Below, one piece after another: positions 203 to 51,372 of a stretch of 64,000 bases of DNA (positions are counted from its first letter, which is position 1; each line of letters starts with the position of its first letter). The notes under the pieces were generated by a model that saw only the letters and a program-made list of their open reading frames with translations, had not been told where the DNA came from and made no database searches. Source of the DNA: Capniomyces stellatus (lineage: Eukaryota > Kickxellomycota > Harpellomycetes > Harpellales > Legeriomycetaceae); the NCBI GenBank assembly GCA_001661515.1, contig LUVW01000026.1:112781-176780 (forward strand), written 5' to 3'. The position numbers and the translations under genes are program-made.

Positions 203-3200
203 TTAAAGATCAAGTTGGCAAATATCATTGATAATATTAGCGACGATTTCAGCGGAATGAGAAAAGTTTTCAGAAGTAAAGCCGAGAGAAAGGTTGTTTG
301 GGTCGGTGGAGATCAAGTTGGACAAGATGTTGAGGCTGTTGAAGTTGTTGTTAATGGGAAAAGAAGGGGGAAGACCGGGCAAGTTGAGTAAGATGAGTAG
401 GGACTCGATGTTGGAAGAAATTAAAAGATTTACGTGAGAGTTGGGATCAGAGTTGGAATTAGAGGTGGAATTAGAGTTGGAATTGGAGTTGGTTGACAAA
501 GATGATTTGACAATAGTAAATGGGAGCTGTGGTGGTTGTTGGGAAATAGAGTGGTTGTTATTGGACAAATTTGTTGATGAAAGGGTGATTAGTTGGGTGG
601 ATAGGTTGTGATTGGTGATGTGAAGGTTTGGAGTTGAGAGGTTGTAAAGTTGGGTAGAACGTTTTTTTCCATTGAACTGAAGTTTTAAGTTTGAGTTTAA
701 GTTTGAGTTTAAGTTTGAGTTTAAGTTTGAGTTTAAGTTTGAGTTTAAGTTTGAGTTTAAGTTTGAGTTTAAGTTTGAGTTTAAGTTTGAGATTGAGTTT
801 AAGTTTAGATTAGAGTTTGAGATTGAGTTTAAGTTTAGTTTGGAGCTGTTGGGGTTGGTGGGGATTGTTGGGCTAAAGATTTGGTCTTGAATGGGATAAT
901 TTAGGTTAGAGTCGGGGGATAATGGGGATAGTAGGGGTAATGGGGATAATGGTAGTTGGTTTGAGCTTTGAATAGGGGACATTAGAGTGTTGAATTTAGC
1001 GTAAGGGTTGTTATTTGTTGCGGGGTCCGAGTTATTGAGACTGTAGAGTGAGTTGAAGCTGGAATTAAGGTTGGAATTGGAATTGGGGTTAGAATTGGAA
1101 TTGGGGTTGTTTGAGTGGTTGGTTTTAGTATTGTTACTGCTGTTGTTGTTGTTGTTGTTGGTTGGTCTTTCGAAAAAGTTGCTGTTATTACTGTTATTAC
1201 TGGCAAAACTGTTGTTGCTGAGGTAGCTGACATTACTGACATTACTGATGTTGCTGATTGATAGTGCAGAGTATGTTGAGTCGTTTGAGATTTGGCGGGC
1301 CAAATTACTAGTAGCGATGTTTCTGGAAATGGGAATTGGAATTGGAATTGGAATTGGGGCAGTAGTGTTTGAAGTTGAGGTTGGTGATGGAATTGAGATT
1401 AAAGAGTTGGCTCTGTTGATTTGATTGGAGGAGTTGATTTGATTGGAAGAGTTGATTTGGCTGAGACCGTAAAAGTTTGAGGAGTTGGGTTTTGAATATG
1501 GATCTTGCAAGTTAAACACAGAGTTTGGATTGTTGTTGTACATTGCAGCGCCAAGTCCAGTTTTGATAAGAAGATTAGATTGAGGATATTTAAGAATAGT
1601 AGTTTTAGCAGAAGTAGTTTGTGCTTTTGTTGTTGGATTGGCAGAGTAAGGTTTCAATACTAGGTTAGAGTTGGAAGAATTGATGCTTGAAAACGAGTTG
1701 TTGTTGTTGTCGTAATTGGGAGTGCTTTTGTTGTTTCTAATGAGTTTTTTGTGGGTTGAGTTTGTGAGGTTTAATGAGTTGATTGAACCAATTGACGATG
1801 TGTGTTCAATAAGGTCATTTGGATTGGCTGTTGAGTTTTTGTGGGTTGGGTTTGAAATAGCTGTGTTTCTTGGGACTTGGCGAGGATCGGTTCCAAGGCT
1901 GTTGGATCTGGAAACTGAGAGTAGGGTTGAATGGTTGAGTTGGGTGGATGGGGAGTAATTGGGGTCGTTTATTGGATTGGTTTGATTTGTTGGATTGGTT
2001 TGATTGGTTTGGTTGGTTTGATGGTCATAATCGTCAGTGTTGGAATTAATATTGTTAAAGTAATAGTAGATTTGGGCAAGAGGATTGTTGTACTTGGACT
2101 TGTAATGCAACGAGTCGACGTTGATTTTAAAGTAGGAAATGACAAAGCTGTAGTTAGAGTGGACAAGCAGAGACAGTTGGTTGGTTAGATCCAGAAGCTC
2201 AGAGTCAACAGGACGTGGGTTGGATGGGATTGGTAAAGAGTTTGTTGAAAAGTTGAGAAATGAGGATGCGGTTTGGATCAGTAACAGGCTGAGCTGGATG
2301 TGGTCAAAGTCCATGTCGGATTGTAGTTGTTGATTAGGTGAAAAATGATGTTGGTTGTAATTGAACAGTTTGTTTAGGTAAAACAAGCGAACAGAAAATT
2401 CTTTGAATAGAGAAACCATAAACCGTAACAGAGTTTTCAACGTGCAAATATCGACAAATGAGCCATCAATAGTGCCGATATTACCGAGAGTTTGTGGTGA
2501 GCTTCCAAAGGCAAATACAGATTGAATGTCGTTGTTTGGTGTGGTTGAAGTTGGTAAGTTTGTTGGTTGCATAATGGAAATTGACCAGATAAACAGCATT
2601 GCCATTTCAAAGGCGTTCTTGTCGGACTGTTTGGCTGTATTTTGTTGGATTGAAGAGTAATAACTGGCAAGTTTCTTTGTTGCTGAGTTTGAACTTGAAA
2701 ATGCTGTTGGTTGGGTGTAAGTTGAGGTTGGGTAGTTTATATAACTAGAGTTGTTGTTGATGTTGTAGAAACTAGACTTTTTGTTTTCATGTCCTGAAAT
2801 CGACAAGTTTGAGTAGTTTTTGACGTTGTATAGTTTGGTTTTGAGTCCTGAACTGTTTCTGTACCCATTATTTTGTTCTGGTTTTGAATTTGGGTTTGAA
2901 TTTGGGTTCGGGTTTGAATTTGAGTTCGAATTTAAACTTGTTCTTAATTTTAATTTTGAATTGGAATTTGAGTTTGAATTGGAATTTGAGTTTGAGTTTG
3001 AATTGAATTTGGATTTGGGTTTGGGTTTGTTGGCTAGTACTAGTTCAAAGTACTCGTTGGTAATGTGATTTACTAGCACAGATTCCAACTGTTTTGAATC
3101 AAGACTGGTTTCCAGTTCGTCTAGCAAACAGTCCAATCCATTACAATCCAAATGATCAAGTTGTGACCCATCACCGCCACCTCCTCCAGTACTGCCAGAG

Positions 3201-6200
3201 TTTGTGCAGGTAGTTGAACGACAAACAGAGAAACTTTTAGTTGCAGATTTCCGGTCAACAAGGACCAGTAAATAAATCAAAAAGGTAATAGAACCTTTAG
3301 GAACGTTTGTAGAGTTTGGAAACAATAACACATCGTCACAGCCACTATTAATTCGATTGGAAATATTGTTTTTGTTGTTTTTTTTGATGTTTTTGATGTT
3401 GTTGCTGTTGCTGTTGTTGGGTTCAGTTGGTGGTAGTTTAGACAGTTCTAAAACGCAAAGAAACCAGAGTTTGTTGAAAAACGCAACAATGCGGTTTGTC
3501 CTGACATAAAGAGACGATAAACAAGCAGACGTGGAATTAGACAATGAAGATAATGAGGGTAGTAGAGTGTACATGAGAGCGTTTGCAAAATCATAATCGA
3601 AACCAATGCCTAGACTGACGTCGAGTTTGAAAAGGCTGTTGTGGATCGTAGCTCTTGAAGCCATAAGTTTGTTGGTGAAAATGGCGTGGAGTTGGAGGTA
3701 CGCATAGTAGCTGGAGTTTGAAGGACCGCCATCAAGATCAAAAGTAGTTTGTTCAAATGAAAGCAACAATAATGACTCTAAATCATGACGGGTCATTGCC
3801 TCAACCACAGAAATCATCAGGTCTAGTCCAACACTGTACAATTGGACATGTCCAATCCGGAGTAAACTGACTGACACCCAGAACAAGTACGGCAACATTG
3901 GGTTTTCTGCGTCCAACTCTCTTGATACTGCCGATAATCCAACTACAATCGAAAGCGGTAATGACGCATTTGACTTGGAAAACACCATCAAACAGTTTTT
4001 CAATGTTGATAACATCTGGAATATTATTATGTTGTCTGGATGTTTTGATAATGTCGAATCTGAATTTGATCCCGATAATGAAACAGACTTGACAACATTT
4101 GATTTCTTTTTACTTTGGTTTTTACTATCGTATTGTCGTTGATTTTGGTGTTGGTGTTGGTGTTGGTGTTGAATCGCTTCAAATTGTTTTGGTGGTTGTG
4201 AAGATGTTGCTAATTGGGCAAACAGGATAAACGCTCTTGGTTGAACAGCTGGATTAAACAAAAACAAACTAAACGATACCAGCCCAACAAGTCTTGACCT
4301 CCAAACCGTCCCGATATTGGCCAAGTCGCTATACAAACCACCGAGATTGACGTGTTGAGAGTTTTGGTTGCCAGGTCCAGACTTTATTAGGCCTGATTTA
4401 GCCAGTCTAGCACTGTTTGCGGTGTTTGTGGTGGGTGAGTTGAATTTGGTGATTATTGGGTGGATGTAAGATGAGGTTGTTGAGGAATTGTTGATTGTCG
4501 AGGAATTGTTTATTCCAAAGTAACTAGTGTTTGACCTGTTCAAGTCAATAATACTAGATGAACTGGTGCCAAAAACGTTCTTTTCAGACTGGTTGAAGGT
4601 TGAGTTGTTGTTGGCGGAAATCTTAGCGTCAATAGAGTCAAAGTAGGGTTTGTTGAAGATGGGCAGCCACGATAAGAACAGGAAAATATCAACAACGTTA
4701 GCAACATTAGCTAAATCGTTCAACAGCATGTGGTTGGCCAGCTTTGGAGAGTTTAGTAGGTGGGAAATCTTGCTAGACTTTGGCAGTGCTGAGACTGAAG
4801 CTGAAGCTGATGAGCCTGGAATCAGACATGAGGCAGAAACATTGGCAGAATGTGGGGCAGGAGTCGAGGAGAGGAATGATTGGTGGGACAGTTTATGTTT
4901 CTGCTTCAAAGTCTGTGACTGTTTTTGTTTCTGTGTAGCTAGAGTCGAGAGGTTGATTGAACTGTAGTTTTTTTGGAAGGGTTTGGCCGAGTTGAAAGTT
5001 ATTGGGTTTGATGTTTGAGTTGAAATGCCAAACCACAATTTAGTTGAAGAATTGTTGATCAACAAATTTGTGAGTTTGTCGAGAAGAATTTTTGAAGGTA
5101 AAGTTTGATAGCCAAACTGGCCTTCATAGCAAAGCGACAAGCTGTAAACAAGATTCACCACAACTCTATAAGTCAGCAACTTGACGTAATCATTACCCAA
5201 CCCACACAAAACAGACACAACAAACGCAAGTTCAGAAAAGCTCTTGAACACAAACTGCGGGTTACTGAAGGTAATTGGAACCAGAAGCCGCAACATTGCA
5301 ACAATCGGAGGCCACTGCACGTGCATCTCAAGTTGACGAACCGGCGGGTGCTGGGTCAACACTGAAACGGCATTACGAAGTTTTGTTATCAGGTTGACTC
5401 CAATTGCAGAGTTGTGCGCACACACCGAAACTACAATTTCGTCAAGTGCTTCGTGGAATCCGGACGTGGAAGTGTGGTTGTTTTCTATCAGTTCTTCCTG
5501 ATCAGTAGCCAAAATCAAATTAATCAACGCGTCCATAAACATTATTGCTACTGCATCGGTTTCAACAAGAATCGGCCAAAACAACGTGCTCATGTACGAC
5601 CGCGCCACACTATCTCTTGTTGACAAGTTTATGATTGCTAAAACTAGGTCCTGAACATCCACCTGAATCTTCACGTTTTTGCCACCCTCTCCCGCCCCAC
5701 CTCCCGCAAACAACCCCGATATTCCCTTAAGGTACGGCCGCATAAACTGAAACACAAACCGCTGCTTATCAACAGGGAAAGTCTTGTACGTTGTCAAACA
5801 CAGCTTGATCAACTCAATCGACAAGTCTGGTGTGTCTACTGCCAACACTTTGCTCACACTCGTTGTAAAGTAGTCGCTTGCTGGCGACACGTACATGTCC
5901 AGCCCCTTGCCAACCACACTAAACGCACATGCAAAGTTTACTGTGCCCAGGTTGCTATAGTCAATATAGTTTGTGTAATCACTACAACTCCCAAAGTAAT
6001 ACTCGTCATCAACAACATTTCCAACCAACGCCATCAAATCTTCAGCTTCAGCTTCAACTTCAGCTTCAGCTTCAGCTTGAGCCTGATGGCCTTGTTGCTG
6101 GTGCTGTTGTCCAAACTTGGCCGAAATAATTATTCCCGTCAAGTTGAGTCCCAGCGGATCCACCATTGAACTCATCAACTTGTACCCTTTCATCCGAACC

Positions 6201-9200
6201 AAATTCGAGTCGCTAGTCAAACTGTACAAAAACAACATTACAAGACTTGCTGCCAAGTCCAGTGGCCTCACAATCCGGTTACCAGAAACCACTCCTGACC
6301 CACTCGAAAACATCCCCTTACCCATTGACGCCTGCAGGTTGTGGAACATCCGACTCGCTCTAATCAGACTAAACAACCTCCGCTCGCGTGTAGTTGAGTG
6401 CAAAATCACCCGCTGCTTGCCAAATCCCCCCAACTCCACCACCAACGCCCGCAATGCTGGCTTCATAACCACACTCTTCTTGCTGTTGATGTACGTCAGC
6501 TGCGCCCACTGCTTTGGCCGGCTCTTGTACACCAGCTTCGTTATCTGCCCCGTAACCGATCGCAACCTACTAACCTCACTCTTCACCTTGTACATCGTCT
6601 CGTTGAAAAACCCAACTGCCTTCAGGCTCATATTGCTGATCTCTGTTATATGCACTACTTGGTTGCAGCACACCGGTAACGTGCCCAGAAACATCCCATT
6701 TGCCTGAAGGTCTGCTATTTGCACCGCATCCCGCGTCACCTTCACCACACACGGCACCAGAATCGGCCGCTTCCTCCTCTTCTTCCCCCGCAACCCCCGC
6801 AGTCCACCTACCCCACCATTCACTCTTGACGCAGGTGGCTGGTGGTAAAACCCAATTGTAAAGCTACTCGCCACACTATTGCTCTCGTCGTCCTCCTCCA
6901 GCGAAATCGTCCCGTTTGGCAAACTTTCCGCTGGGTTGTACACCATCTTTTTCAGATCGTCCAAACCTGACGGAAACACAGACACACTGACAATCCACTC
7001 GATCAGCCCCGTGATGTTGACTGATTTTGCCCCATCCATCTGCGCCGCTGACTTTTTGTGCATCGAGTTGAACAGGTTGTTTGTGTACGTTAAGAACCAC
7101 TCGTTGACGTTGTACCAGTACATATTCTTAACCACCACCCGCGTACCCTTTGCTGCTGACCCAAACGACTTGTACAGCGTTGACACAATTTCGTACACCA
7201 TTTCGTGGTGCAGCTCATTAACTCCGCCAAACTGCGTCAGGTCAAAAAACACATCGATTTCTACTACTTCTGCCACTCCGCCATCTTGCCACCAATCCGA
7301 ATCGCCTCCCATCCCCGTATTACCCTTATTTGCCTTGAGTCTGTTTTTGAGTCGCTGCTTTGTAAGTTGCGCCTCTATAATCGCCTTGATCTGCCTAAAC
7401 AGGTGTACTGTTAGAACATTGGTTTCAAACATCGAAAAATGAACTCTCCTGCTGATTACGTACAGCACCGGTCTGTACCCGTTCTTGCTTCCTACCGAGT
7501 AAAACATTTGTCGCTTCTCAATCTGGTCTGTGTTTATCGTTTTGTTTACCGCAAGAATCTGCTCAAACTCTGACTCGTACTCTAAATCCAAGCTGGACTC
7601 TAAATCCAAATTAGATTCCATTCCTAAACTAGACTCTTGCTCCGATTCAGTTCCCAATCCACCATCTCCGCTAGATCTGGACCTACATCTGGATCTGGAA
7701 TCTGAATTTGACTTTTCTTTTCTTTTATTGTTGTTGTTGTTGAGCGTTGATGGTTTGTGTGGTGTGTTGATTAAAGGAATCAATTGCTGTTGAGGAACTG
7801 GTCTAGTTGGAATTCCCAAACGCACAATCAGACTGAAAAGGTACTTTGACAAGTCCTCAAATCCTCCACTAAACACATCCAACCCACCACCATTCTCACC
7901 ACTACCACCACTCTCACCACCGACATTACTAGCATTACCAGCATTATTGGCCAGATTCAAATCCTGATCAAGTTCACCTGAACCTAAATTAACTGACGGC
8001 GATTCTAGCAACGAAACCGTAGACTTGATGATTGGAAAGCCAGCTGGGTGACTGAGCTTGTGGATAGAAGAGCAGATCTGGCCAAGATTGACAAAAATGT
8101 GGTTGTGCAGGTTGATAAAGTTGCAGTAGCCAAATGACAAGTTGGGACTGGCAATGACTCCGCCCATAGCCAAGCAAACAGGGGTTTGAAAAGGTTTTGG
8201 CTCGGAAATTGTAGACAAAAACTGAGAAACTTTAGCAGATTTGTTTGCTATAAACGGAATCAACGGCTCCATAAACGGCTCCTTGTAAACAGCAGCACCC
8301 ACGTTGTTGGCAAGAGTTTGAATAACCTTTGCGCTCAGCAACAGACCGCGGTTGAGATGTTTGGGTATTGGACTGATGCCTAGCAGAGCTGACGAACCAA
8401 TCAGTGCTGGACAAATAAAGCGCAAGAAAATAAAACCTCCAACACTAGTAATACCGCTTTCAGAAAACTTACGGCTAACAAGACGTTTTAAAAGCGAACA
8501 AAACACCAGGAACTCGGCTGGTAAACACTCGGTGGATCTGACTATCGACTCGAGAATTTCGCTGCACAACCGCTCAAAATTCATCACGTTTTGCACAACA
8601 CTGTCACGTGGACCAAACCTGTTTGGGTCCAGTTCGTAGCTTCCCATTTCCGCTGGCATGTCCAGGTGACGTTGGATGGGTCCGCCCAGCACGTGCTTGA
8701 GGTACTCTGTGCCGTACTTTTTGGAAAATAACGCCAACACGCGTGATGCAACACCGTTACGTCTAAACAGTTCTGTGCTTGACTCTGTGCTCGCTACTTC
8801 GTAGCAAACCAGCACTTTTAACAGGTGCATCGTACGTCCATTCGTTTCAAACACATCAAATAAAACATCTGACAACTCTTCTACCTGGCTAACCAAACAA
8901 CTATCAATAACCGCCACTAGCAGTTGGCTGCCCGGGTCCATCAGCAGCACCGTCAGCTCGGTTGGCGCATTGTGTTCGCTTTTGAGTTCTCCTACCGATA
9001 CTGCCCCAGCCTTGCTCATAAACTCTACTAATGCGTCAAGGTACATGGCCTGCACCCGCTTGCTTGAGTTGTTGCAAATCATCTGGAGCGGCTGCAGTCC
9101 CAACCCCACATTCGCCCTGACCAACGCACACAACGACTCACCAACACTGTCCAAAATCGCACAACTAACTTCCATCGACTTTTCCATCAGCTCGTTTGCA

Positions 9201-12200
9201 CTGTACTCACGCCTCATCTGCGAGTGCTCCATAAACTCAACTATTGCGTTTATGTAGAACCGGTACAGCTCCATGCTGCTCTTGACATCGCCCACTAGCA
9301 TTCCCCGGTTTGCTCCCCCAGAATTCGTGTCCACCAGCACCATGTCTACCGCTAACCTGCTCAACGCCCGTGTGAACCGCGCCATCATCATCTCCATCTC
9401 CAGTTGCCGGACCTCCACCAGACTCCCAACCACTTCTGCCCCAGTCCTTCCCAAGTCACTCACCCGCAAAAAGTCAAACACCCAAACCACTATAGTGTAA
9501 AACAAAATATTTCGCTCCACTATGCTGTACCGCAACCCGCAACCACCATCCACTTCACTCTCCAGCATCCCGCTAACTAAATCAGCCAACATACATCGCT
9601 CATACATCATCTCAAACGACGTTGCAAACTGCATGTCCTGCAAATACTTTGCTATATCCATCACTATTGCCTCTACATCCACATTCTCATCCACATCCAC
9701 ATCCACATTCCCATCTTTATTTCTATTCATTTTACTCGGGTTTCTTTGCCGTGTCCTCACCAAACTTCCTGCAACTACAATTGCTTGCCGCACAAACAAC
9801 GTACTCTTCTCTGAATAATTGACTTGGCCTCCAATACCCCCTGAAACAAACATTGCAACCGTTTGCTGCACTCGGCCCATCACCAGTCCAACTAGCAAAC
9901 GGTGTACACCCTCCACCAAAATCTGTACCACCTGTTCGCGCCTATACTCGTCCCCGCTTACCAGCAGCATCAGGAACTCGTCCAGGAACTCCCTCATCAG
10001 TATCCCCGCCTCCTCCTGGCTCATCTGCTGCGCCATCCACACTGGCCAGCACTCTTCAGTATCCCCAACCAACCCCAATTCCACCGCCCCATCATTCAAA
10101 CACCCGTACCCCGATAGAACTAGAAACACTGTACAGTTGCGCCACTGTTCCGTCAACTCGCTGTACACCTTTTCAATCATCATTTCCTCCTCCCGCGTAT
10201 ACTTGACTCCCCCCTTTCCCCCTTCAACTCCCTCCTTTTCCCCGCTATTCTCCTCCACCATTCCTCCTCTAACTCTCCCATAATCGCCATCCTCAGCGCT
10301 GCCTACTTTACTCTCGCTACCCAGCTCTTGCCAATTCTGCACTGGAACCGACATCAACGACTCTGCCGGCTCTCTGTAATGCGTCATCTTGAAAACATTA
10401 ATCTTTTTGTTGTTGGCCATTTTACCATGACTCGCTACTTTTACCGCTGGGAATTCTTTGGTCAGCGATATGTTTGATGTGCTGCTGCTCAGCCCCTGGT
10501 CAAACTGCCCTGCCATCTCCCCCTGTTCAGCTGTGTCCTGCCCGTAAATACTGTGCATTTGGCTCACGTTTAGCGACAGAAACTGGTACCCATCGCGCGT
10601 CAGGTCCTTTTCAGACAGCAAATCTACATTCATAACCACGTTTCTACCCATACTGCCCCCAATCAGCTCTGTCGTGTTTGCTGCATTTGCTACACTGCTT
10701 CTGTTGTTTCCCCCACTGCTGCTCTTTGTTAGTCCGTTGAACTTTTCCTGGAATATCGACTTGACCTTGCTTGAAACTTGTGCAGGAAACTTGCCTGTTT
10801 TTCCACCATTGTTTTGACTTCTCCCATTCACACTCGACCCAAAATCTTCAGCAGCACTTTTACCCTTCATCATCCCAATATCCCCACTAATCTCACTCTC
10901 ACTATACTTATTATCCACATCTCTATATCTATCCACATCTCCATCTCCATCTCCATCTCCATCTCCATCTCCATCTCCATCTCTATCTCTATCTCTATCT
11001 CTATCTCTGGTTGAACTCGAGTTTATTCCCATACTGTTATTACTGTCTAGCATCCATTTATTCTTGCTTTTAATTTTAATTTTACTTTTATTTTTATTTT
11101 CACTTTTGTTTTTGTTTTTGTTTTTGTTTTTTTTTTTGTTTTTGTTTTTACCTCCTATAAACGAAGTAAGTAATTTGAACGAATTGGTGTTGTTTGACTT
11201 GACCTGATCCCGCATAATAATGCTCTTTTCCATCCCATCTTGTATATATCCATACCCATACCCATACCCATACTCGTACCCATTTTCATGTTCATGTTCA
11301 TGTTCATGTTCATGTTCATTTTCATTTTCTTGTTCTTGTTTGTTGTTTTGATCCCTATTCAAATCGACTACATTTTTGTTTATTGTTCTCTTGTTTTCTG
11401 CAAACTGACTGGTCAACGAAATTGGCAAAGCCTCGATTATCCCGCTACTTAGAATCTGACTGAGTCTTGGCTTGTTGGTTTTTGGGTAAAAAGATGCCAG
11501 TGCGGTGTTGTAATGGGTCCATTTCATGTACGCTTCTGCCCAGGCCATCATCAGCACCAAATTCGAGCCTGAATTTCCATTAAAGCTCCGTCTTAGCATC
11601 ATATCCACCTCAGCCCGACTTTTTCCTCTCAAACTCAACCCTCCACCAACTCCAAATCCACTTGTTTGATTGGACGTTTCAACCTCTGCTATCATTGCGC
11701 GAAACAAATTAGCATTGCTCAAAAGTTCAAACTTGTTAAGCTCTTCCAGTTCCATAACTTCGCTCGGGTTTTTTGAGACGGGATGCTTGCTGACCAGCAG
11801 CTTTGCACACTCGAGAACAGCCTCGACTATTTCAAGGCGACTATTCCACAACTGCTGAAGCATCACACTTTCCACCGCATATCCAAACCGAATGTGACAA
11901 TCGTACCTCTCCCACACCCCACATTCACTGCCAAACTCGCCCTCGCTCAGCCCTGCCAACTCCACGTACTTTTGCCTCTTGGCAATCAGGAACCGCAGCA
12001 ACCAGATTCCCCTCAAACTTTCGTCTGCTGTTGTGGTGTCGGCCGCCTGTAGAATGTTCTGGCACACCGCCTCCATCACCTGTGACGTCACCACACAAAA
12101 CCTCTTCCAGTCCCCAACCTCTCCAGTCCCGTAACCGGAATTCACATTTTCACTCTTGTACACCTTCTTGCTGCCACATATTACTCCGCCCAGGTAGTCA

Positions 12201-14952
12201 AACACTGACCCCATCATCTCCACCGCTGGCCCAAACAACTCCCGCAAACTGCTCGACAAACACATCACTATTGACACTGCCACTGGGTATGGCTCAACTG
12301 CCGGCACTGTACATCCAATCGCCAACTCCCCAAACATTGTGTACGCCTTCAACACCCCCATCACTATATCCACATTCACTCCCCTTACATCTTCCTCCCT
12401 TTCATCTTTTCCAAACATTCTCTCTTCATCTTCATCTTCATCTTCATCTTCATCTTCATCTTCATCTTCATCTTCTCTCTCTTTAACCCTGTATCTCTTA
12501 TCCTCACTACCATTGCCCATTCCTATACTTGTACCCGTACTTTCACTTGTACTTGCATTTGTATTTGTACTTGCACTTGCACTTGTTCTTGTACTCGTAC
12601 TTGTTCTGTTATTTATATTTTCTTTTCTTTGATTCATATCCCCATCACTATAATTTCCACTATACTTATTATTTCTATCTCCATCTTTGTATTTATTTCT
12701 ATTTTTATTTCTATTTCTACCTTTATTGACATTTCTATCACTGCTGCTATTGTTATATACTCCTGCTAATCCTCTACTTGTTCTATCGCCTATACCCATT
12801 TGCACACTAGATCCTACATTCGATCCTACATTCGATTCTACATTCACACTACCTTCGCTCATATCATCTGCCAACCTCAACGCCAAAATACTCGTCCAGT
12901 ATATTTCTGCCAGCTGCTCCCTTGCCAGTCTCACAAACCCTTCCTCCAATTCCTCTCCAAACTGTCGCTTACTCCCCAAGTACATCACCAATCCCCGCAC
13001 AAACCCCAGCCTCACTCGGTTTGACTCGATCTCTTTTACCACATGTCCCCCAAACACCCTAATAGACTTTACTGGGTTTAAACTCAACTGGTAAAACATT
13101 TCTCTACTTGTAACCCCTTCATCATAATCTTCTTTGTAATTATACTCGTTTCCATTTCCATTTCCATTTCCATTTCCATTTCTATTTCTATTTCTATTTC
13201 TATTTCTATTTCCGTATTCTTCCTCGTTTCTTGTCTTTGCTTTTTCTTGTACTTGTACTTTTCCCTCCAATCTTCCCTTTTCATTTTCCCTCTGATACAT
13301 CCGATCTACCAATATTCTTCCTGCATCCAGCTGCAAGTACCTGCTTAGTTTCTGCACCCCACTCATGTTTCTTTGTGGCTGCATCGATGCCACCTCCATT
13401 ATTGCTATACCCGACTCTTCAACCCCTTTTGACATTTTCCTTTTCTTAAACTCTTGTCTCAGTGTTGAAAAGAAGCTATACATTCGGTTCTCCTTTCTTG
13501 TTTCCTTTTCCCGTCTCGTTTCCTTTTCTTTTCCCTTTTCATTCTCCATTCTAGTTTCTTTTTTATTCTCTTGCCCAATTCTGCCTTCAGCTCTACTTTC
13601 AACATCTACTTCTGCCTCTATTTCTGCCAACTTTATCGATGTTTTCGGCATCAATCCCAACAAAATCACCAATACTGGCCAAATCACCTCTGTTGACCAG
13701 TACTCGTTTGCAATTTTGTTTTCTTTGTCCTTTTTGTTTTCTCTGTTTTCAAGCCACACCTCCATAATCATATCAAACAATACCTTTGCACTCTCCATAT
13801 CCTCCTTCACCTCCCCGTTCTTCTCTCCCCTCGCATTCATCTCCACAAACTCCTTGCTGCTCTGCGCCATATACCTTCGTATTCCTATTTTCAGCCTCTC
13901 CATCATGAATGTCTTCATTTCATTGCTCCTCCTGCCCATTATCTCAATGCTCGCTCTGATCATCTGGTCCAGTTTCTCCATATCATACAAACTGTGCTTA
14001 AACAACTTCAAGTTTACCTCCTCACTTCTAACATCCACCTCCACTTCCTTGTACAGAAACTCGTGCATCTGCCCAAATATCATGTCCCAGTTACTGCTCG
14101 TCAAGTACATGTACACGTATCCCCCTGCACTCATCAGCTCCTCCTCCACTCCTCTCCCCCTAACTCCCCCCCTAACTCTCCCCACTTCCACTCCCAATCC
14201 CCCAAAAACCATCTCCACCAATTTCTCCATTTGTCCCCCCTTCTTCACATTCCTTTCCCCCTCCGTCAAGTACACCCACGGCATCTTTCTAGCCTCCCAT
14301 CTTTCTACCTTCTTGTCAAACGCCCACACTTCTTTACTCCTCCCCACCATCCCCCTCTCACGTCTCTTTGCCCCCGCTGCCCCAAAAATCCCCCGAATCT
14401 TTCCCAGCAACTCATTCGCTACCCTACCTTCAATCCTCTTTACCCCTCTTAGTTTCTCATAACAAATCATCTTACTCTTCTTTTCCTCCTGATCACTTAT
14501 CCAGTCCAAATTCAGCCCCGTTGCCAACATTCTCCACACTATCAACCGCGTCACATCGTAATCTTCCCCACTCTCTTCCAACCTCTCCAACGATATCTAT
14601 TTGTTTTTCATTTACAAATTCATAAACAAATCCATAAACTAACACATAACCCTCTTTATATCTATAACCCTTTTTATATCCATATCCCTCTTTATATTAT
14701 ACTTACCTTGTCCAACCGCGTCAATAGTGTGTAAAGTGCCTCCACCACACTGTCTCTGTCAACTTTGAACATCTCCAGTATCACTTTAACCAAATTCTGC
14801 ACCACCTCATCATTGGCTATCTCCTCTATCGTTCTTTTGCTTGATGGCGGCAACTATTATTTCATTTATTCATATTTCACCCACATCCCCTTCTTGTTAA
14901 CAAATCTTGATCACTACCCTTTATATCCCCTCCCCCCCCCCCCCCCCCCNNC

Positions 14953-35503: not shown

Positions 35504-36991
<1,488 letters not shown>

Positions 36992-37375: not shown

Positions 37376-38545
37376 TCAAAACAAAGAGAAGCTGATGGCA
37401 AGAATAGAGAATACGGCGACTAGCGGAGCCTTATTGAATGCCATTGCACCTGAATTCTTATCTTCAGTGCCGGCAGCTAAAGTACTAAGATTTCCCTTGG
37501 CAGCCTCTGCGTTGTATGACTCGACATTGGTAACACCGGTGGTGTAGCTGTCGTTGCTGTACAGTATGTTTGACTTGGCCTTGACATCGGTGATGTTGTA
37601 TTTTTTGACAAGGTCAATAATAGACTCTTTAGTAATATTCAGTTTTGACCCCAATACCTCAGATGCGACCGCGCCAGCAATTGCATGAACTCTTGTTGTT
37701 GGGTGGATCCAATCAGCAAAAAGATAGTCATCAGAGTCTGGGCAGGATGATACAAGCACCTTATCCTTAACTGGGTAGCAACTTTCGTTCACATTTTTGA
37801 TGTTCATTGCCAATGATACCTCTGGGGTGCCAATGAGATGAAGCAACTCGTAAAAATCAAAGATCTTGACATATTCGACCTTATCTTTTTGTGCTGTTCC
37901 AAACTCGGTCACCTTGCTCAAAAGCTTGGCATTAGTGGCAGTTATGTATGCCGTGAATACCCTCAGAGCTGGTGCTGGCAATGTGTTGATTGCTGGTGTC
38001 AATACAACATCAGGGATGTTTGACACAATCACTCTCTTGTAACCAAAGCCGACCAATCGGCTTACGGATGTCATGATGTTTGATACTACCGAATCAGAAA
38101 ACTCGGTCATGTTTATGGCGCCGGTGGCCAGCAGCTGGGAGCCATCAAGGAAATCGTTTGAGCCAATTTCGATTGCTACAATGTCTTTGGCAATTGCTTT
38201 TGTTCCGTTCAAAGAGCCAAAAGTTTTCATGAAAGAGTCGATTTGGTCGGGGACACTTGGGATTGTGATGTTTTGCTTTGTGAACATGTTCACGCTGGTG
38301 TTGTTTGATGTAGCACCACCCACGGCGTAGTTTACCAAGGTGAGGTTGTTGTAATGAGCCAAGTACTCGTTCCATACTGGTCCTGTTGAGAATCTCTTGT
38401 TCCACCAAGGAACTGGGAATGTTGCGTTATAGACATTTCCAATATCTGACAAGCTGTTTCCAAAAACGACAAGCTTATCTTTGGCCTCGGCAATGCTCAC
38501 CAAGCCTACTGCAAAAAGAGACAATATATTAACTGCTGATACCAT
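37376..38545 (-). CDS. Secreted GPI-type SGNH/GDSL hydrolase, paralogue 1 (389 aa)
   Basis: A surface or cell-wall esterase/lipase of the SGNH superfamily, probably cleaving acyl or acetyl esters; the substrate is unknown. A signal peptide spans about residues 1-21. Block I is VFGNSLSDIGN with nucleophile Ser31, block II has the conserved Gly in YAVGGATSNN, block III has the oxyanion Asn in EIGSNDF, and block V is ADWIHPTTR with Asp278 and His281. GNSLSD stands in place of the usual GDSLSD. A Ser-rich C-terminus ends in a hydrophobic tail (LVAVFSILAISF) like a GPI signal. It is a single exon. This is the first of four same-strand paralogues and is most like paralogue 2. Gene-family assignment is strong; substrate and anchoring are inferred. 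Confidence 0.88.
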   Translation of the reverse strand: MVSAVNILSLFAVGLVSIAEAKDKLVVFGNSLSDIGNVYNATFPVPWWNKRFSTGPVWNEYLAHYNNLTLVNYAVGGATSNNTSVNMFTKQNITIPSVPDQIDSFMKTFGSLNGTKAIAKDIVAIEIGSNDFLDGSQLLATGAINMTEFSDSVVSNIMTSVSRLVGFGYKRVIVSNIPDVVLTPAINTLPAPALRVFTAYITATNAKLLSKVTEFGTAQKDKVEYVKIFDFYELLHLIGTPEVSLAMNIKNVNESCYPVKDKVLVSSCPDSDDYLFADWIHPTTRVHAIAGAVASEVLGSKLNITKESIIDLVKKYNITDVKAKSNILYSNDSYTTGVTNVESYNAEAAKGNLSTLAAGTEDKNSGAMAFNKAPLVAVFSILAISFSLF

Positions 38546-40634: not shown

Positions 40635-41801
40635 CTAGACCAATACAAGGAATATGGCAAGGATGGCGAATACAGCTGCGATTGATGTCTGGCTTTTGAT
40701 TGCAGCAGAGTTGGAATCTGTAGATACAGCAGACAGCTTTTCAACATTCAATTCAGCAGCCTTTGCGTTGTATGACTCGACTTTGGTAACACCGGTGGTG
40801 TAGCTGTCGTTGTTGTACAGTATGTTTGACTTGGCTTTGATTTCAGTGAGATTGTATTTTTTGACAAGGTCAATAATAGACTCTTGGGTGATGTTGAACT
40901 TTGATCCCAATACCTCGTTTGTAACAGCACCAATAACAGCATGTACTCTTGTTGTAGGATGAGCATCATCGGCAAAGATATAGTCGTCAGAGTCTGGGCA
41001 TGTAAAGGTCAGGATGTTATTTCCAACCTGGTAGCAAACATCTTTTACCACCTTGAAGTTCAGCGAAGCTGATACCATAGGAGTGGTTAGAACGCCCATA
41101 AGTTTAGAAAGATCCTGTAGCTTGACATAGTCTATTTTCCCCTTTTGCTCAACCTCAAACGTACTCAGCATAATATCTAGCCGCTTGTTTGCAAGGTCCA
41201 GATACATTTTAAGCAATGTTTGCACTGGTACTGGAAGCGTGGTGACCATTGGACTGGCCGACATGTCTGGTATGTTTGAAACAATCAGCCTTTTGTAGCC
41301 AAATTTGACAAGTCTGTTTAGCGAGACCTGGATGTTGTTTATTACAGTATCAGCGTACATATCCATACTGACTACTCCAGCGACTATGACTTCAATTCCA
41401 TAGAACAGATCGTTTGAGCCAATTTCAACTGCTACAATGTCTTTGGCAATTCCCTTTGTTCCATTCAACGCACCGAATGCCTTTAAGTACGAGTCTATTT
41501 GATCAACGACGCTTGGGATTGTGATATTCTGTTTTGCCAGCATATTCACACTAGTGTTGTTTGATGTAGCTCCACCCACGGCATAGTTTACCAAGGTGAG
41601 GTTGTTGTGGTACGCCAGGTATTCGTTCCATACTGGTCCTGTTGAGTACCTCTTGTTCCACCAGGGAACCGGGAATGTTCTATCATGTACGTTTCCAATA
41701 TCCGACAAGCTGTTTCCAAAAACAATGAGCTTATCTTTGGCCTCGGCAATGCTCACCAAGCCTGCTGCAAAAAGAGACAATAAACCAATAGCTGATACCA
41801 T
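40635..41801 (-). CDS. Secreted GPI-type SGNH/GDSL hydrolase, paralogue 2 (388 aa)
   Basis: Same architecture as paralogue 1: signal peptide (1-21), nucleophile Ser31 in VFGNSLSDIGN, Gly in YAVGGATSNN, Asn in EIGSNDL, and the Asp-His pair (Asp278, His281) in ADDAHPTTR. The C-terminus ends with a hydrophobic tail (AAVFAILAIFLVLV). All catalytic residues are present, so activity is expected. The first 100 residues are nearly identical to paralogue 1, while the C-terminal half has diverged more, which suggests either recent duplication with uneven divergence or gene conversion at the 5' end. A CTATATAAC motif about 100 bp upstream (near 41901) could be its TATA element. Confidence 0.88.
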   Translation of the reverse strand: MVSAIGLLSLFAAGLVSIAEAKDKLIVFGNSLSDIGNVHDRTFPVPWWNKRYSTGPVWNEYLAYHNNLTLVNYAVGGATSNNTSVNMLAKQNITIPSVVDQIDSYLKAFGALNGTKGIAKDIVAVEIGSNDLFYGIEVIVAGVVSMDMYADTVINNIQVSLNRLVKFGYKRLIVSNIPDMSASPMVTTLPVPVQTLLKMYLDLANKRLDIMLSTFEVEQKGKIDYVKLQDLSKLMGVLTTPMVSASLNFKVVKDVCYQVGNNILTFTCPDSDDYIFADDAHPTTRVHAVIGAVTNEVLGSKFNITQESIIDLVKKYNLTEIKAKSNILYNNDSYTTGVTKVESYNAKAAELNVEKLSAVSTDSNSAAIKSQTSIAAVFAILAIFLVLV

Positions 41802-43068: not shown

Positions 43069-44247
43069 CTAAGAGATCAACACAAAACCCAGGGAAATGA
43101 TCGCTGCTATACAAGAGCCAGTTACTTTAGAGCTGGAGCTTTGCAGACCAATGGGTGTTGTCGTTACTTTTGGCCGCGGTTTTCCCTTCAGCTTCACCAA
43201 GTCGCTTTCGGTTAAGCTCCAGTTATACGAATCGATTTTGACAATTCCCGTGGAGCTGCTATCAGGGTAGTACATAAAGTTGTCTTTTGTGCCAGCAAGA
43301 GTTACGTTGTACCTCTCAATAATAGAAAGCACTATATCTTCGCTTACGCCATTAAACCCGTTGACGACTTCTGCTGCAATCGCCCCAATCAGAGCGTGCA
43401 CCCGAGTAGTAGGATGTATGGTGTCGGCAAATAGATACTTGTCTGAATTCTCACACGAAGAAATAAGCTTATTGTCTAAAACTCCATAGCATGGCGAGGC
43501 GATGTTTTCGATGTGCAGCGCCTGTGTTACATTTGGATCGTTGAAAACGTCTGTTATCTTGTGCAGGTCAACTATACGTGTCCACCCAGGATACCCTCTT
43601 CTGGCAAAAGTAAACGTCATGATTCTTCCATATAATTTGGAGTTCGCAATTCTGATGTACCTGTCAATGTTGGCAATCTCTGTTTTAGTTAAAGCCTCGA
43701 CAGCTGGCGTGATCGACAAATTCGGGATATTAAAGACCAGTATATTTCTGTAGCCAAAGTCTGCAATCATAGTTACTGAGCGCATTATACTCGAGACCAA
43801 CGAGTCGGTAAAAACATCTATATCAATAGAGTTTGACGAAAGCGGCCCGATAGAGTACAGTATATCATTTGACCCTATCTCGATTGCAACAATGTCATCA
43901 CTAATGCTCTTTTTATCAAAGTGTTTTCCAATTTCATTTGAAAAGGACTCTATTTGATTGATTGCACTAGGTATTATGGATGTCGTGTTGGAAAAAATAT
44001 TTAAACTTGTATTATTTGAAGCAGCTCCTCCTATCGCAAAACTCATCAAAGTGTAGTTTTTGTAAAAAGAAAGGTATTCGTTCCAAACAGGGCCAGTGGA
44101 AAATCGCTTATTCCACCATGGTATTGGATATGTGCTAAAGTTGATATTGCCGGTGTCAGATAGACTATTCCCAAAAACCAGCAGTTTTTTGTTTGCCTCA
44201 ACCTTGCTCAGCAGTATAAGCACAAAGGTAGATATCAATATTCTCAT
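43069..44247 (-). CDS. Secreted GPI-type SGNH/GDSL hydrolase, paralogue 3 (392 aa)
   Basis: Diverged array member with a shorter signal peptide (about 1-18). The catalytic set is complete: Ser28 in VFGNSLSDTGN, Gly in FAIGGAASNN, Asn in EIGSNDI, and Asp275 and His278 in ADTIHPTTR. The shared landmark WWNKRFSTGPVWNEYL is retained. The C-terminal tail (SCIAAIISLGFVLIS) is again hydrophobic and GPI-like. It is more distant from paralogues 1 and 2 than they are from each other, so this duplication is older. Activity is expected; the substrate is unknown. Confidence 0.87.
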   Translation of the reverse strand: MRILISTFVLILLSKVEANKKLLVFGNSLSDTGNINFSTYPIPWWNKRFSTGPVWNEYLSFYKNYTLMSFAIGGAASNNTSLNIFSNTTSIIPSAINQIESFSNEIGKHFDKKSISDDIVAIEIGSNDILYSIGPLSSNSIDIDVFTDSLVSSIMRSVTMIADFGYRNILVFNIPNLSITPAVEALTKTEIANIDRYIRIANSKLYGRIMTFTFARRGYPGWTRIVDLHKITDVFNDPNVTQALHIENIASPCYGVLDNKLISSCENSDKYLFADTIHPTTRVHALIGAIAAEVVNGFNGVSEDIVLSIIERYNVTLAGTKDNFMYYPDSSSTGIVKIDSYNWSLTESDLVKLKGKPRPKVTTTPIGLQSSSSKVTGSCIAAIISLGFVLIS

Positions 44248-45651: not shown

Positions 45652-46830
45652 CTATAAAAGTGTGGAAAAGAGCAAACAAGTAGCTGATAGCAAAAGCAAA
45701 ACACCAGTGCCCGACTTGGTGTTGCTTCCGGATGAGTACCTGAATGCTTCTCTTCCTGTTGCGATTTTTGTAGAGTTGCCTTCTGCCTGTTTCCTATTAT
45801 AAGAACTGATTTTGACCAATCCAGTGGTGTTGCTATTTTGCTTATAAATAAAGTTGCTCTTGGAGCCAGCAGATGGTATGCTGTACATCTTGATGTGAGA
45901 TAGTACGGATTGTTGACTAAGACCATCAAGCCCTCTTGACGCTTTGGTTGCCATAGCCCCAATCAGAGCATGAATACGGGTTGTAGGGTAATACGAGTCT
46001 GCGTATATATAGGAGTCTGATTCATCGCATGAGGAAACCAGGCGGTTATTCAACTCAATGTAGCATGGTGCACTGGTGGATTTGATGCCCAGGGCCTCAG
46101 TGACATTAGGTGTGTTAAAAAGCTGGAATAAGGTATACAAGTCGAGTATCTGCACAGAGTTGGTGGTTTTATTTGATTCTTTTATTAAATCCGTAACACT
46201 GGTGTACAGCTTGGCGTTGATTTCCTTGATGCAGTTCTCGACCGGCTTCAAGTACGACTCTGGCAATTTAGAAATAGCAGGAAGTAAGGTTAAGTCTGGG
46301 ATGTTTGATACGATAAACTTTTTGAATCCAAAGCCATCAAGTTTACGAACCGAGTTCATGATATTTGAGACCAAGTTGTCCGAAAAAGAGTCAATGTCGG
46401 TGGAGTTTGAATAAATGTGCCCAATAGAGTTTATAACGTCGTTGGATCCTATTTCGATAGACACCAAGTCGGTCTCCATATCAGTCTTTTTCATCTGGTT
46501 TCCTATCTTTTCAATAAACGAATCGACTTGTTTGGGAAGACTGGGCGCCTTGGTCTGCGCATCAGAGTCAGCAGCTTCATCGGTGTCGTTCGACAATGCA
46601 CCACCAAAAGCGTAGTTGACTAGAGTGTAGTTGTCAAAGTAGGCCAAGTACTCGTTCCAGACGGGACCTGTGGAAAACCTGTTATTCCACCATGGCACTA
46701 CTTGTTCTGTGTTGTTTGAATTGCCTATATCCGATAGGCCGTTTCCAAAAACGATCAATTTGTTTTTAGCCTCAGTAATCGTCACCACCGAGCCTAAAAG
46801 CGCGAGTAGAGTTTTTGTTTTTATTGCCAT
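45652..46830 (-). CDS. GDSL-like pseudoenzyme, paralogue 4 (392 aa, catalytic Ser and His lost)
   Basis: The full SGNH/GDSL fold signature is present: signal peptide (about 1-21), WWNNRFSTGPVWNEYL, Gly in YAFGGALSND, Asn in EIGSNDV, and a GPI-like tail (GVLLLLSATCLLFSTLL). However, the block I nucleophile is glycine (VFGNGLSDIGN, Gly31; codon GGC where paralogue 3 has AGC). The block V histidine is tyrosine (ADSYYPTTR, Tyr281; codon TAC where paralogue 1 has CAC). Asp278 remains. The frame is intact over 392 codons with no stop or shift, and the secretion signals are kept, so this is not an ordinary pseudogene. Ester hydrolysis by the usual Ser-His-Asp mechanism should be impossible. A ligand-binding, decoy or structural surface role is an inference. 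Confidence 0.87.
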   Translation of the reverse strand: MAIKTKTLLALLGSVVTITEAKNKLIVFGNGLSDIGNSNNTEQVVPWWNNRFSTGPVWNEYLAYFDNYTLVNYAFGGALSNDTDEAADSDAQTKAPSLPKQVDSFIEKIGNQMKKTDMETDLVSIEIGSNDVINSIGHIYSNSTDIDSFSDNLVSNIMNSVRKLDGFGFKKFIVSNIPDLTLLPAISKLPESYLKPVENCIKEINAKLYTSVTDLIKESNKTTNSVQILDLYTLFQLFNTPNVTEALGIKSTSAPCYIELNNRLVSSCDESDSYIYADSYYPTTRIHALIGAMATKASRGLDGLSQQSVLSHIKMYSIPSAGSKSNFIYKQNSNTTGLVKISSYNRKQAEGNSTKIATGREAFRYSSGSNTKSGTGVLLLLSATCLLFSTLL

Positions 46831-48946: not shown

Positions 48947-51372
48947 ATGTATCAAGATAATTTTGATGATGAGTTTTCAGGAGACATTAATGTCGAGGTA
49001 GTTGCTGATTCATATGCAGCAAGAGATGATTTTGAAGATGGAGAAGTTACCAAAGGTAAGATGCTAAAAAAAAAAGGAAATTGATATATTATTTAGTAAT
49101 GCAAATGTTGAGTTTAGGGCTGAGATGTTTTGATCAGTCAAGATTAAAGGGGGGGGGGGGAAGCAATGAAAAAAAAAAAGAATGTGTGAAGAGGGAATAA
49201 AAATAAAGAAGATGAAATGGTATGATTAATAGAGCTTGAGGAGATCCAAATTGAGCAGAAACTTTTACATGACAAGCATCAGGAGCAGCTGCAGGCAGGG
49301 ATTGAGTCGATTCCAGATCAAGTTAGAGATTTCTTGCTGTACTTCCACAGAACAGTAATTCAGCTGAATACAGGCAAAATCACACACATTTACGAGTATC
49401 AATTTAACAAGTTGAGCGAGAGATACTTTGCAAAAGCAGCGTGGCCAGAGCCAAAGTATGTATCGGCACTTGTGAAGGATAGCGGAGTGTTTCTAACGCT
49501 GTACAAAGAGCTGTACTACCGTCACATTTATAGTCGTTTGCAGTTGAGTCTGGAGGTCAGAATTCTTTCGTTTGAGAATTACTGTGATCTGTTCAACTAC
49601 ATTTTGAGTAAGTAAACGAAAAAGAAAATAGAATAGATAAACAGAGTTGTAATGGTGATGTTGATATTGAGTATGTTTGATTATTTTATTTTATTTTGAA
49701 GAGAAGAGGAAGGGGATTAGAGAAGGTGTTGGGCTAACAATAGAAGCTAATGTAAACATTAAATGTAGACTCTGATAAGCCAGTCAGCCTTGAGCTTCCA
49801 AACCAGTGGCTATGGGATATTATTGATGAGTTCATCTATCAATTCCAGACATTCTGTGCCTATAGAAACAACTTGAACAAAAAGACACAGGAAGAGATCG
49901 AACTGTTGAAGTCATCGCCAACAGTAAGTCAAAAATAGGAGTTTAGGGTTGTGGGGAGGGGGGGGGGGGGGGGGGGGGGGGGTGGTATAGAGGGTGTTTG
50001 ATAGCTTAGTAATAGGGGATATGAGAGGAAAGTTGATATGGAATAAAGAGAAATAACGATTGTGATGGTTTTATAGGTCTGGAACACGCACAGTGTACTG
50101 AACGTGTTGTACAGTTTGGTGTCTAAATCGAACATTACACAGCAGCTACATGCAGGAATTCACGGAGGAGATTTGGGGTAAGTAGAGAGTTAGGGTTGTT
50201 TAGGGTTGTTTAGGGTTGTATAGGGTTGGATATTGTCGAGTGTGACATGCATAGTGTGTAAAGTAGATAAATGATTAAAAGTGGATGTGGTGTTGTAATG
50301 TAGAGAAATAGCAGGAGAGTACGGATCATGTACACTGTACAAGATGCTTGGATACTTCAGTTTGATTGGGCTGTTGCGTGTGCACTGTTTGTTGGGAGAT
50401 TATACATTGGCGCTGCAGAGTTTGGAGAACATTGAATTGGGCAACCACCGGGCGTTGTTTACGCGAGTACCAGCATGTCACGTGACGCTGTACTACTATG
50501 TGGGATTTTCGTACTTGATGATGAGAAGATACGCAGACGCAACAAGGACGTTTGCAGGAATCTTGACGTTTATTTCACGTACAAGACAGTACCAAACACG
50601 GTCATTCCAATTTGACATAGTGAACAAGAAGGCAGACCAGATGTACGCGCTTCTTGCAATCTGCATGGCGTTGTCACCAACAAGAGTTGATGAGCAGATC
50701 CACAGTCAGCTGAGAGAAAAGTACGGAGACCAGCAAATGCGGATGCAGCGAGGAGGCGAGGAGTCACTGACGACATTCCAGGAACTGTTTATGTATGCTT
50801 GTCCAAAGTTCATCAGCCCAAATGCACCAAACTACGATCTGTTTATCAGCAAAAACAAAAACGAGGAGGGCGACTCTGGTGCCGAGTCAGACGACGACGA
50901 GGCTGCGGCCGAATCCGAGTCCGAGCTTGAACCCGAGTCCGAGTCCACTGAAGGCCGACCAAAGAGAGCCAAGTACAACAAGTTTGAGCTCCAGGCATAC
51001 CAAATGAAGATCTTTATGCACGAAGTAAGCCTACAACTCGTCATCCCCACTCTCAGATCCTTCCTCAGACTCTACACCAGCATGAAGCTCGACAAACTCG
51101 CGTCTTTCCTGGACATTTCCCCAAGCGAGCTCCACACCCAGCTTCTTGTCTTTAAGCAAAGAGCAAAACAGCTCAAGTGGGTTGGTGGTGCCAGTTTGCT
51201 TGAAGGCGAGATGTCTGTCACCAGCGATTTGGGTTTTGCTATTGACAACGACGTTGTTTATATTGCCGAAAACAAGGTTGGCCGCAGATATGCTGATTGG
51301 TTCATCAGAAACTCTGTTCGACTCCAGGATCTCGTCAACAACTTGGAATCCAAAAGCATCCACTCTGCCTAA
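48947..51372 (+). CDS. Translation initiation factor eIF3 subunit l (5 exons, 602 aa)
   Basis: A PCI-family subunit of eIF3, the complex that brings the initiator complex and mRNA to the 40S ribosome. Exons are 48947-49055, 49233-49607, 49769-49923, 50077-50177 and 50304-51372; all phases agree and each intron has a GTAAG donor and TAG acceptor. Near-invariant stretches are visible: IPDQVRDFLLYFHRTVIQLN, ELPNQWLWDIIDEFIYQFQ, EYGSCTLYKMLGYFSLIGLL, TLYYYVGFSYLMMRRYADA and CPKFISPNAPNYD. The C-terminal PCI/winged-helix region ends in RRYADWFIRNSV. A Ser/Glu/Asp-rich insert of about 35 residues follows LFISKNKNEEGD, where animal proteins have a short linker. At 602 residues it is slightly longer than the human protein because of this insert. 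Introns 1 and 3 contain poly-G tracts, and intron 4 has telomere-like repeats. Confidence 0.97.
49149..49160 (+). repeat. Poly-G12 in eIF3l intron 1
   Basis: Twelve G in a row on the coding strand, followed about 15 bases later by an A run. It lies well clear of the donor (49056) and acceptor (49232). Confidence 0.9.
49958..49982 (+). repeat. Poly-G25 in eIF3l intron 3
   Basis: About 25 consecutive G on the coding strand, with GTGGGGA just before. It lies inside the intron 49924-50076. The exact length is unreliable in short-read assemblies. Confidence 0.88.
50191..50229 (+). repeat. Telomere-like 10-bp repeat in eIF3l intron 4
   Basis: Four tandem copies of TAGGGTTGTT-like units contain the fungal telomeric core TTAGGG on the coding strand. 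They sit about 10 bases after the intron 4 donor (50178). Confidence 0.88.

Follow-up and report, generated by a model that had tools for sequence, protein, structure and literature searches.

A full-length GDSL-family gene without catalytic serine and histidine in a tandem array of Capniomyces stellatus: a putative surface pseudoenzyme

A 64,000-nt stretch of the Capniomyces stellatus genome (assembly GCA_001661515.1, contig LUVW01000026.1, positions 112,781 to 176,780 of the forward strand), here called the window and used for all coordinates unless another contig is named, carries four GDSL-family genes, p1 to p4, in a head-to-tail tandem array on the minus strand. One of them, p4, has an undamaged open reading frame and codes for glycine and tyrosine at the positions of the catalytic serine and histidine. 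We hold with moderate confidence that its product is a pseudoenzyme, kept as a folded surface protein that binds a ligand without cleaving it. Moreover, and beyond what the initial annotation of the window had noted, this pattern is not unique to p4, as 7 of the 23 full-length family members in the genome lack the Ser or the His.

Catalytic residues and predicted structure of p4

The gene and its five diagnostic codons are listed here.

45652..46830, minus strand: p4, full-length PF00657 gene without catalytic Ser and His; open frame
46738..46740, minus strand: codon 31, GGC, coding for Gly where block I has its catalytic Ser, by direct read-out and alignment; falls on Ser38 of ChoE (see below)
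46600..46602, minus strand: codon 77, GGT, block II Gly (oxyanion hole), retained
46441..46443, minus strand: codon 130, AAC, block III Asn (oxyanion hole), retained
45997..45999, minus strand: codon 278, GAC, block V Asp, retained
45988..45990, minus strand: codon 281, TAC, coding for Tyr where block V has its catalytic His; falls on His288 of ChoE

The p4 frame runs from an ATG through 392 codons to a stop, with none of the internal stops or frameshifts that mark a pseudogene, and its product scores 53.2 bits against Pfam Lipase_GDSL (PF00657), where the curated cut-off is 23.6. At the codon-31 column p1, p2 and p3 have Ser (AGC, AGC and AGT) and at the codon-281 column His (CAC, CAT and CAT); each p4 codon is a single transition away from a sister codon. 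Of the residues that characterize active SGNH hydrolases, p4 has lost the Ser and the His and kept Gly77, Asn130 and Asp278, together with two cysteines that are invariant in the family. This is the pattern of a GDSL pseudoenzyme, with the catalytic motif gone and the protein otherwise intact. The initial annotation had described the intact Ser and His of p1 to p3, the Gly31 and Tyr281 of p4, its retained Gly and Asn blocks with Asp278, and its undamaged frame, all of which were recovered at the codons above. Because Ser10Ala or His216Ala abolished the activity of the Streptomyces rimosus lipase (PMC10779480), we take p4 by analogy to be inactive; very probably, it is no serine esterase.

The AlphaFold2 model of p4 (mean predicted local distance difference test score, pLDDT, of 87.3; predicted template-modelling score, pTM, of 0.85) has the SGNH fold of solved hydrolases, and its listed fold matches are SGNH-type hydrolases by title. 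The closest is ChoE, the SGNH acetylcholinesterase of Pseudomonas aeruginosa (PDB 6uqv, 6uqy, 6ur1), followed by thermolabile haemolysins, PlaA, and the fungal CE16 and AnAE esterases. The structural alignment of p4 with ChoE extends from residues 22/29 to 299/306 with an offset of 7 at both ends, and this constant offset places Gly31 on Ser38 and Tyr281 on His288, two members of the ChoE catalytic set S38-G98-N147-H288 as given in an excerpt of PMC11372007. The ChoE S38A and H288N entries are titled as acetylthiocholine complexes, so that either loss alone leaves a binding pocket; by the same analogy, the p4 pocket may be able to hold a ligand.

Compared with ChoE, p4 continues about 90 residues past the aligned part and ends in a hydrophobic tail. 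The initial annotation had assigned a signal peptide and a tail like that of glycosylphosphatidylinositol (GPI)-anchored proteins. What stands of this assignment is a hydrophobic N-terminus and an uncharged hydrophobic C-terminal tail, a GPI-type layout as defined by a Kyte-Doolittle hydropathy rule alone. Given these two segments, p4 would sit on the cell surface.

Catalytic losses across the family

With p4 as the query, a search of the 24.5-Mb, 59-contig assembly matched 32 places, or 30 loci by our count. For comparison with the 23 full-length frames, 14 fungal database proteins and 3 from bacteria were added; among the 23 are the minus-strand frame of L017, which is open and has no ATG, and L022, which is so distant that its block alignment is unsure. 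Excluded from the counts were broken, partial or contig-end-cut copies (L023, L024, L032, L033, L034, L035 and L036) and GDSL-domain matches that the p4 query missed and that are distant or contain stops (L012, L019 and L020). The full Ser, Asn, Asp and His set is present in 13 of the 23 members, and the three that neither have this set nor lack Ser or His differ at Asn or Asp. Of the 14 fungal database proteins 2 also lack the Ser, a lower bound for such proteins since the second and third protein searches were capped, the third scoring the 7997 candidates with the most words in common. The replacements are as follows.

p4: Gly for Ser, Tyr for His
L021: Gly for Ser, Ser for His
L027: Gly for Ser, Lys for His
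L030: Gln for Ser, Ile for His
L031: Gly for Ser, Asn for His
L029: Thr for Ser, His retained
L017, plus strand: Ser retained, Asn for His
P0018 (Smittium culicis): Gly for Ser, Ser for Asp, His retained
P0019 (Zancudomyces culisetae): Glu for Ser, Gly for Asp, Thr for His

For comparison, an excerpt of PMC4757993 counts 3 dead members among 116 GDSL sequences of Arabidopsis thaliana; the proportion here is in excess of that (Fisher p = 1.2e-4), with the criteria of the two counts differing.

In the main tree, built from 40 rows (23 genome members, 14 fungal and 3 bacterial proteins) after removal of the five catalytic columns, p4 is the sister of the intact p3 with a support of 98/94, and the same pair is recovered in a 21-row tree (96/89). 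L021, L031, L030 and P0019 form a separate group (99/96), which L027 adjoins with weak support (96/42). Parsimony on the 40-row tree counts at least four changes of the Ser state and at least three of the His state. In particular, one old loss that would unite all eight Ser-less rows in a single clade was rejected (approximately unbiased (AU) test, p = 0.0031, 40 rows), and two losses are therefore a firm minimum. A tree that joins P0018 to the dead clade withstood the test, with a fit slightly above that of the unconstrained tree (p = 0.563, 40 rows), so that the parsimony count of four Ser changes may be three. On the 21-row set, which was picked after the first test by dropping long and distant rows, both a grouping of p4 with the five-protein dead clade (p = 0.0038) and a grouping of p4 with P0018 (p = 0.0084) were rejected; the 40-row values are given in the Discussion. 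Judged from the aligned residues, catalysis has been lost more than once in the family, and the topology tests together with the p3 sister relationship indicate that p4 very probably lost it by itself after the split from p3.

Several further members were observed. L010, L018, L014 and L013 are related to one another and retain Ser, Asn, Asp and His; at the aligned block II Gly they have Phe, Tyr, Phe and Ser, respectively, and all four are without the hydrophobic C-terminal tail. L028:1640-2836 (minus strand), the sister of the Ser-less L029, is full-length and retains Ser, Asp and His, with both aligned oxyanion-hole residues replaced. L011:4574-6238 (plus strand) is an intact GDSL member with a long Thr/Tyr/Pro-rich repeat tail that resembles a cell-wall protein. 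Finally, L023, L032, L033, L034, L035 and L036 are broken or partial copies, the first piece of L023 likewise having Gly at the position of the catalytic Ser; introns may account for some of the stops in the excluded copies.

Maintenance of members without the catalytic set

The C. stellatus protein L030 and the Zancudomyces protein P0019 are joined with a support of 100/99; both lack Ser, Asp and His and have further nearby changes in common. They are 41.7% identical (path 1.62), whereas the intact Zancudomyces protein P0008 and its closest match in the C. stellatus genome, p1, are 40.1% identical (path 1.97). With the orthology of both pairs presumed, these sequences suggest that retention between the two fungi was at least as good for a protein without the catalytic set as for one that has it. 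The structure model of P0019 is confident (pLDDT 84.9, pTM 0.84). Broken and partial copies exist in the genome, so that decay seems to occur where nothing holds a copy. That 7 of 23 members lack Ser or His, and that a branch with neither residue is common to C. stellatus and Zancudomyces, together suggest that non-catalytic members are kept.

Constraint and erosion in p4

The terminal branch of p4 is about as long as that of its intact sister p3 (0.85 and 0.88 in the 40-row tree; 0.87 and 0.83 in the 21-row tree). The initial annotation had tied its argument to the ratio of nonsynonymous to synonymous changes (dN/dS, omega) of p4 against its paralogues; in a five-gene codon model of 385 codons omega is 0.185 on the p4 branch, not near 1, versus 0.234 elsewhere, both values being rough since the synonymous distance (dS) on the p4 branch is saturated and that branch spans time before the loss. 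Fixing omega at 1 on the p4 branch gave a worse fit (twice the log-likelihood difference, 2dlnL, of 12.8), and a difference between p4 and the rest was not detected (0.29). Omega is thus below 1 over the whole p4 branch, pre-loss time included. Free separate omegas for p3 and p4 hit the branch-length bound and were not used.

Conservation among 24 intact fungal relatives reaches at least 95% at 33 sites, of which two deviate in p4, the positions of Ser31 and His281. As 4 of the 33 sites are catalytic, the hypergeometric probability that both deviations are catalytic is 0.011 (0.011-0.035 over four thresholds), in a test made after p4 had been chosen for these two residues. Outside the catalytic set p4 deviates at 1 of 38 conserved sites, the median of the 24 intact members also being 1, and the eight other members without Ser or His have 3-7 deviations with a median of 5 (Mann-Whitney p = 5.6e-4).

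In sum, either p4 lost its catalysis selectively and the remainder of the protein held, or the loss is very young. The initial annotation had argued that two losses without frame damage suggest selection. The pattern on which it relied stands, as the pair is lost and the rest kept, and the family suggests that dead members are maintained; the argument is weaker for p4 itself, where the open frame bounds drift only to about 0.054 changes per site and dS is saturated. Nor need both losses have been selected, as the second change can follow freely after the first.

Neighbouring genes and other observations

The remaining genes of the array and its flanks are listed here.

43069..44247, minus strand: p3, intact S/G/N/D/H paralogue, sister of p4
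40635..41801, minus strand: p2, intact paralogue
37376..38545, minus strand: p1, intact paralogue
36002-36991, plus strand: enolase frame, one flank of the array
50344-51372, plus strand: PAF67-domain frame, the other flank

TATA-like words lie within 300 bases upstream of p2, p3 and p4, with none for p1, and the promoter comparison was uninformative. Elsewhere in the window, 203-14590 (minus strand) is a 4795-codon open frame with a RasGAP match, many 6-, 12- and 18-base repeats, and a strong GC skew. On another contig, C28:210997-212050 (L037, L038) has exon-like matches to SepSecS (PF05889), a protein of selenocysteine (Sec) synthesis. SepSecS is rare in fungi. According to an excerpt of PMC12611240, genes of the Sec machinery are a feature common to Harpellales.

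The eight best protein relatives of p4 come from Furculomyces, Smittium and Zancudomyces (34-39% identical), and the ninth from Mycoemilia. Zancudomyces belongs to the order Harpellales, as do Smittium and Furculomyces. Members of the order inhabit insect guts, as stated in an excerpt of PMC5954228.

Discussion

The reading that we favour has p4 derive from an expanded family of secreted, partly tail-anchored SGNH/GDSL esterases of the ChoE and thermolabile-haemolysin type. Within the tandem array p4 has lost both its nucleophile, Ser, and its general base, His, an event that very probably followed the split from p3; by sequence and model, the predicted fold, the two invariant cysteines and the oxyanion-hole residues stayed. 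The protein is probably still made as a folded surface protein, and its pocket would hold an ester, lipid or wall ligand uncut, making it a binding or adhesion protein and an enzyme no longer. For p4 we propose, as the explanation that fits best, a dead pocket that binds at the cell surface.

Several observations weigh against it. On the 40-row set, the grouping of p4 with the five-protein dead clade was borderline and not rejected (AU p = 0.058), nor was its grouping with the Smittium protein P0018 (p = 0.304). The saturated dS and the pre-loss share of the p4 branch blur the omega values. At the position of the Ser L030 has Gln and P0019 has Glu, and because these residues differ, the loss common to the two is itself only an inference. 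No close orthologue of p4 was found, the best eight matches all having Ser and His, and a wider search for dead orthologues yielded one protein at E <= 1e-20 among the 7997 scored candidates, a search that also missed its own query row P0019. A hydrophobic tail is present in 5 of 7 members with catalytic loss and in 5 of 13 without (p = 0.35), with no significant link between the two. Finally, the scant erosion of p4 outside the catalytic set fits a young loss as well as a retained pocket.

This last point leads to the strongest alternative, in which p4, redundant with three intact neighbours, was freshly inactivated and is drifting to a pseudogene without having met a stop yet. At about 0.054 neutral changes per site the frame would have a 5% chance of still being free of stops, a model that ends in a neutral stretch permits up to about 0.167 changes per site (log-likelihood drop of 1.94), and as little as 0.027 changes per site would produce about 2 hits at the 33 conserved sites; the single transitions at both codons, the little erosion elsewhere and the broken or partial copies in the genome all agree with it. 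On the other hand, the catalytic pair took both hits and the remaining 29 conserved sites took none (P = 0.011), the loss would fit only into roughly the final 4% of the branch (0.16 out of 3.7-4.5 neutral codon changes, by our own arithmetic), and six further full-length members without Ser or His exist in the genome. For p4 alone, we regard a young loss on its way to decay as possible, if somewhat unlikely.

An improbable alternative is that p4 serves as a decoy or regulator of its active siblings, competing for a substrate or inhibitor or pairing with them. Its three intact tandem neighbours are built alike, competition for a ligand is one possible action of pseudoenzymes (excerpt of PMC10211241), and inactive beetle GH28 proteins act in the same pathway as active ones (excerpt of PMC6549527); the p4 sequence has no sign of pairing or of a common inhibitor. 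Less probable still, p4 could have kept esterase or transferase activity through a different mechanism, in which other residues stand in for Ser and His. Excerpts of PMC10211241 and PMC11372007 describe, respectively, migrated residues in some pseudoenzymes and an active Pleurotus GDSL hydrolase with SGGI replacing SGNH, and p4 does contain Ser33 and His287. However, the Pleurotus protein retained its putative nucleophile Ser, which p4 lost, and Ser33 and His287 are conserved in intact relatives too and are therefore not replacements gained by p4. Least probable is an error of assembly or sequencing, or else a rare allele. Only one nucleotide separates each changed codon from that of a sister, yet the two coding transitions lie 750 bases apart in a frame of 1179 bases that is free of frame errors, and the same residues are missing at further loci of this assembly as well as in proteins from two more species.

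A set of dead GDSL proteins with at least two losses and a Ser- and His-less branch in common with Zancudomyces would indicate non-enzymatic use of the fold, perhaps at the fungus-insect interface. The genome holds a series of intact members, dead members with little erosion, dead and eroded members, and broken copies, in which the change from enzyme to binding protein could be studied. Further, several Harpellales relatives of p4 carry the database name thermolabile hemolysin, which would mislead on the Ser-less P0018 and P0019. GDSL pseudoenzymes are already known, from plants, and the interest here is in the many dead members of one fungal family and in the branch common to Zancudomyces. 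Among titles and abstract openings, with subscription journals mostly outside the searched set, no fungal GDSL pseudoenzyme was found, the nearest being the Pleurotus hydrolase without Asn and His (PMC11372007); no paper on both Harpellales and GDSL was found in that set, and the words GDSL, lipase and hemolysin are absent from the main text of an mBio comparison of nine Harpellales taxa.

Comparison with known systems

Among sequences of solved structures, p4 best matches the thermolabile haemolysin / phospholipase VvPlpA type (PDB 6jl1, 6jkz, 8h09; E 1.6e-13), which has the Ser and His that Gly and Tyr replace in p4; we do not imply a haemolytic role for p4. The Arabidopsis protein ERMO3/MVP1/GOLD36 (At1g54030) resembles p4 in belonging to the GDSL family and in having Gly for the block I Ser, and excerpts of PMC4757993 and PMC3498303 report it without lipase activity and with another cellular role. 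Unlike p4, it is a plant protein seen in the vacuole, and the Ser is the sole catalytic change that these excerpts report. The inactive GH28 polygalacturonases of beetles parallel the family of p4, being driven by duplication and including many inactive members that matter (excerpt of PMC6549527), in a different fold and organism.

Cholinesterase-like adhesion molecules (CLAMs) are proteins of the alpha/beta hydrolase superfamily. They include neuroligin, neurotactin, gliotactin and glutactin, membrane-bound esterase relatives that lack at least one triad residue, according to an excerpt of PMC9958613. p4 may work like them; this is an analogy only, since CLAMs are animal proteins of a superfamily other than that of p4, and we do not claim p4 as a CLAM. 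In the broadest version of the comparison, which we consider doubtful, non-catalytic surface proteins would have arisen on more than one occasion in Harpellales gut fungi from an SGNH fold of the cholinesterase/lipase type. They would grip a ligand, be it an ester of choline or lipid or a component of the wall or gut lining, as a fungal SGNH counterpart of CLAMs in which p4, its pocket intact, would be the youngest convert.
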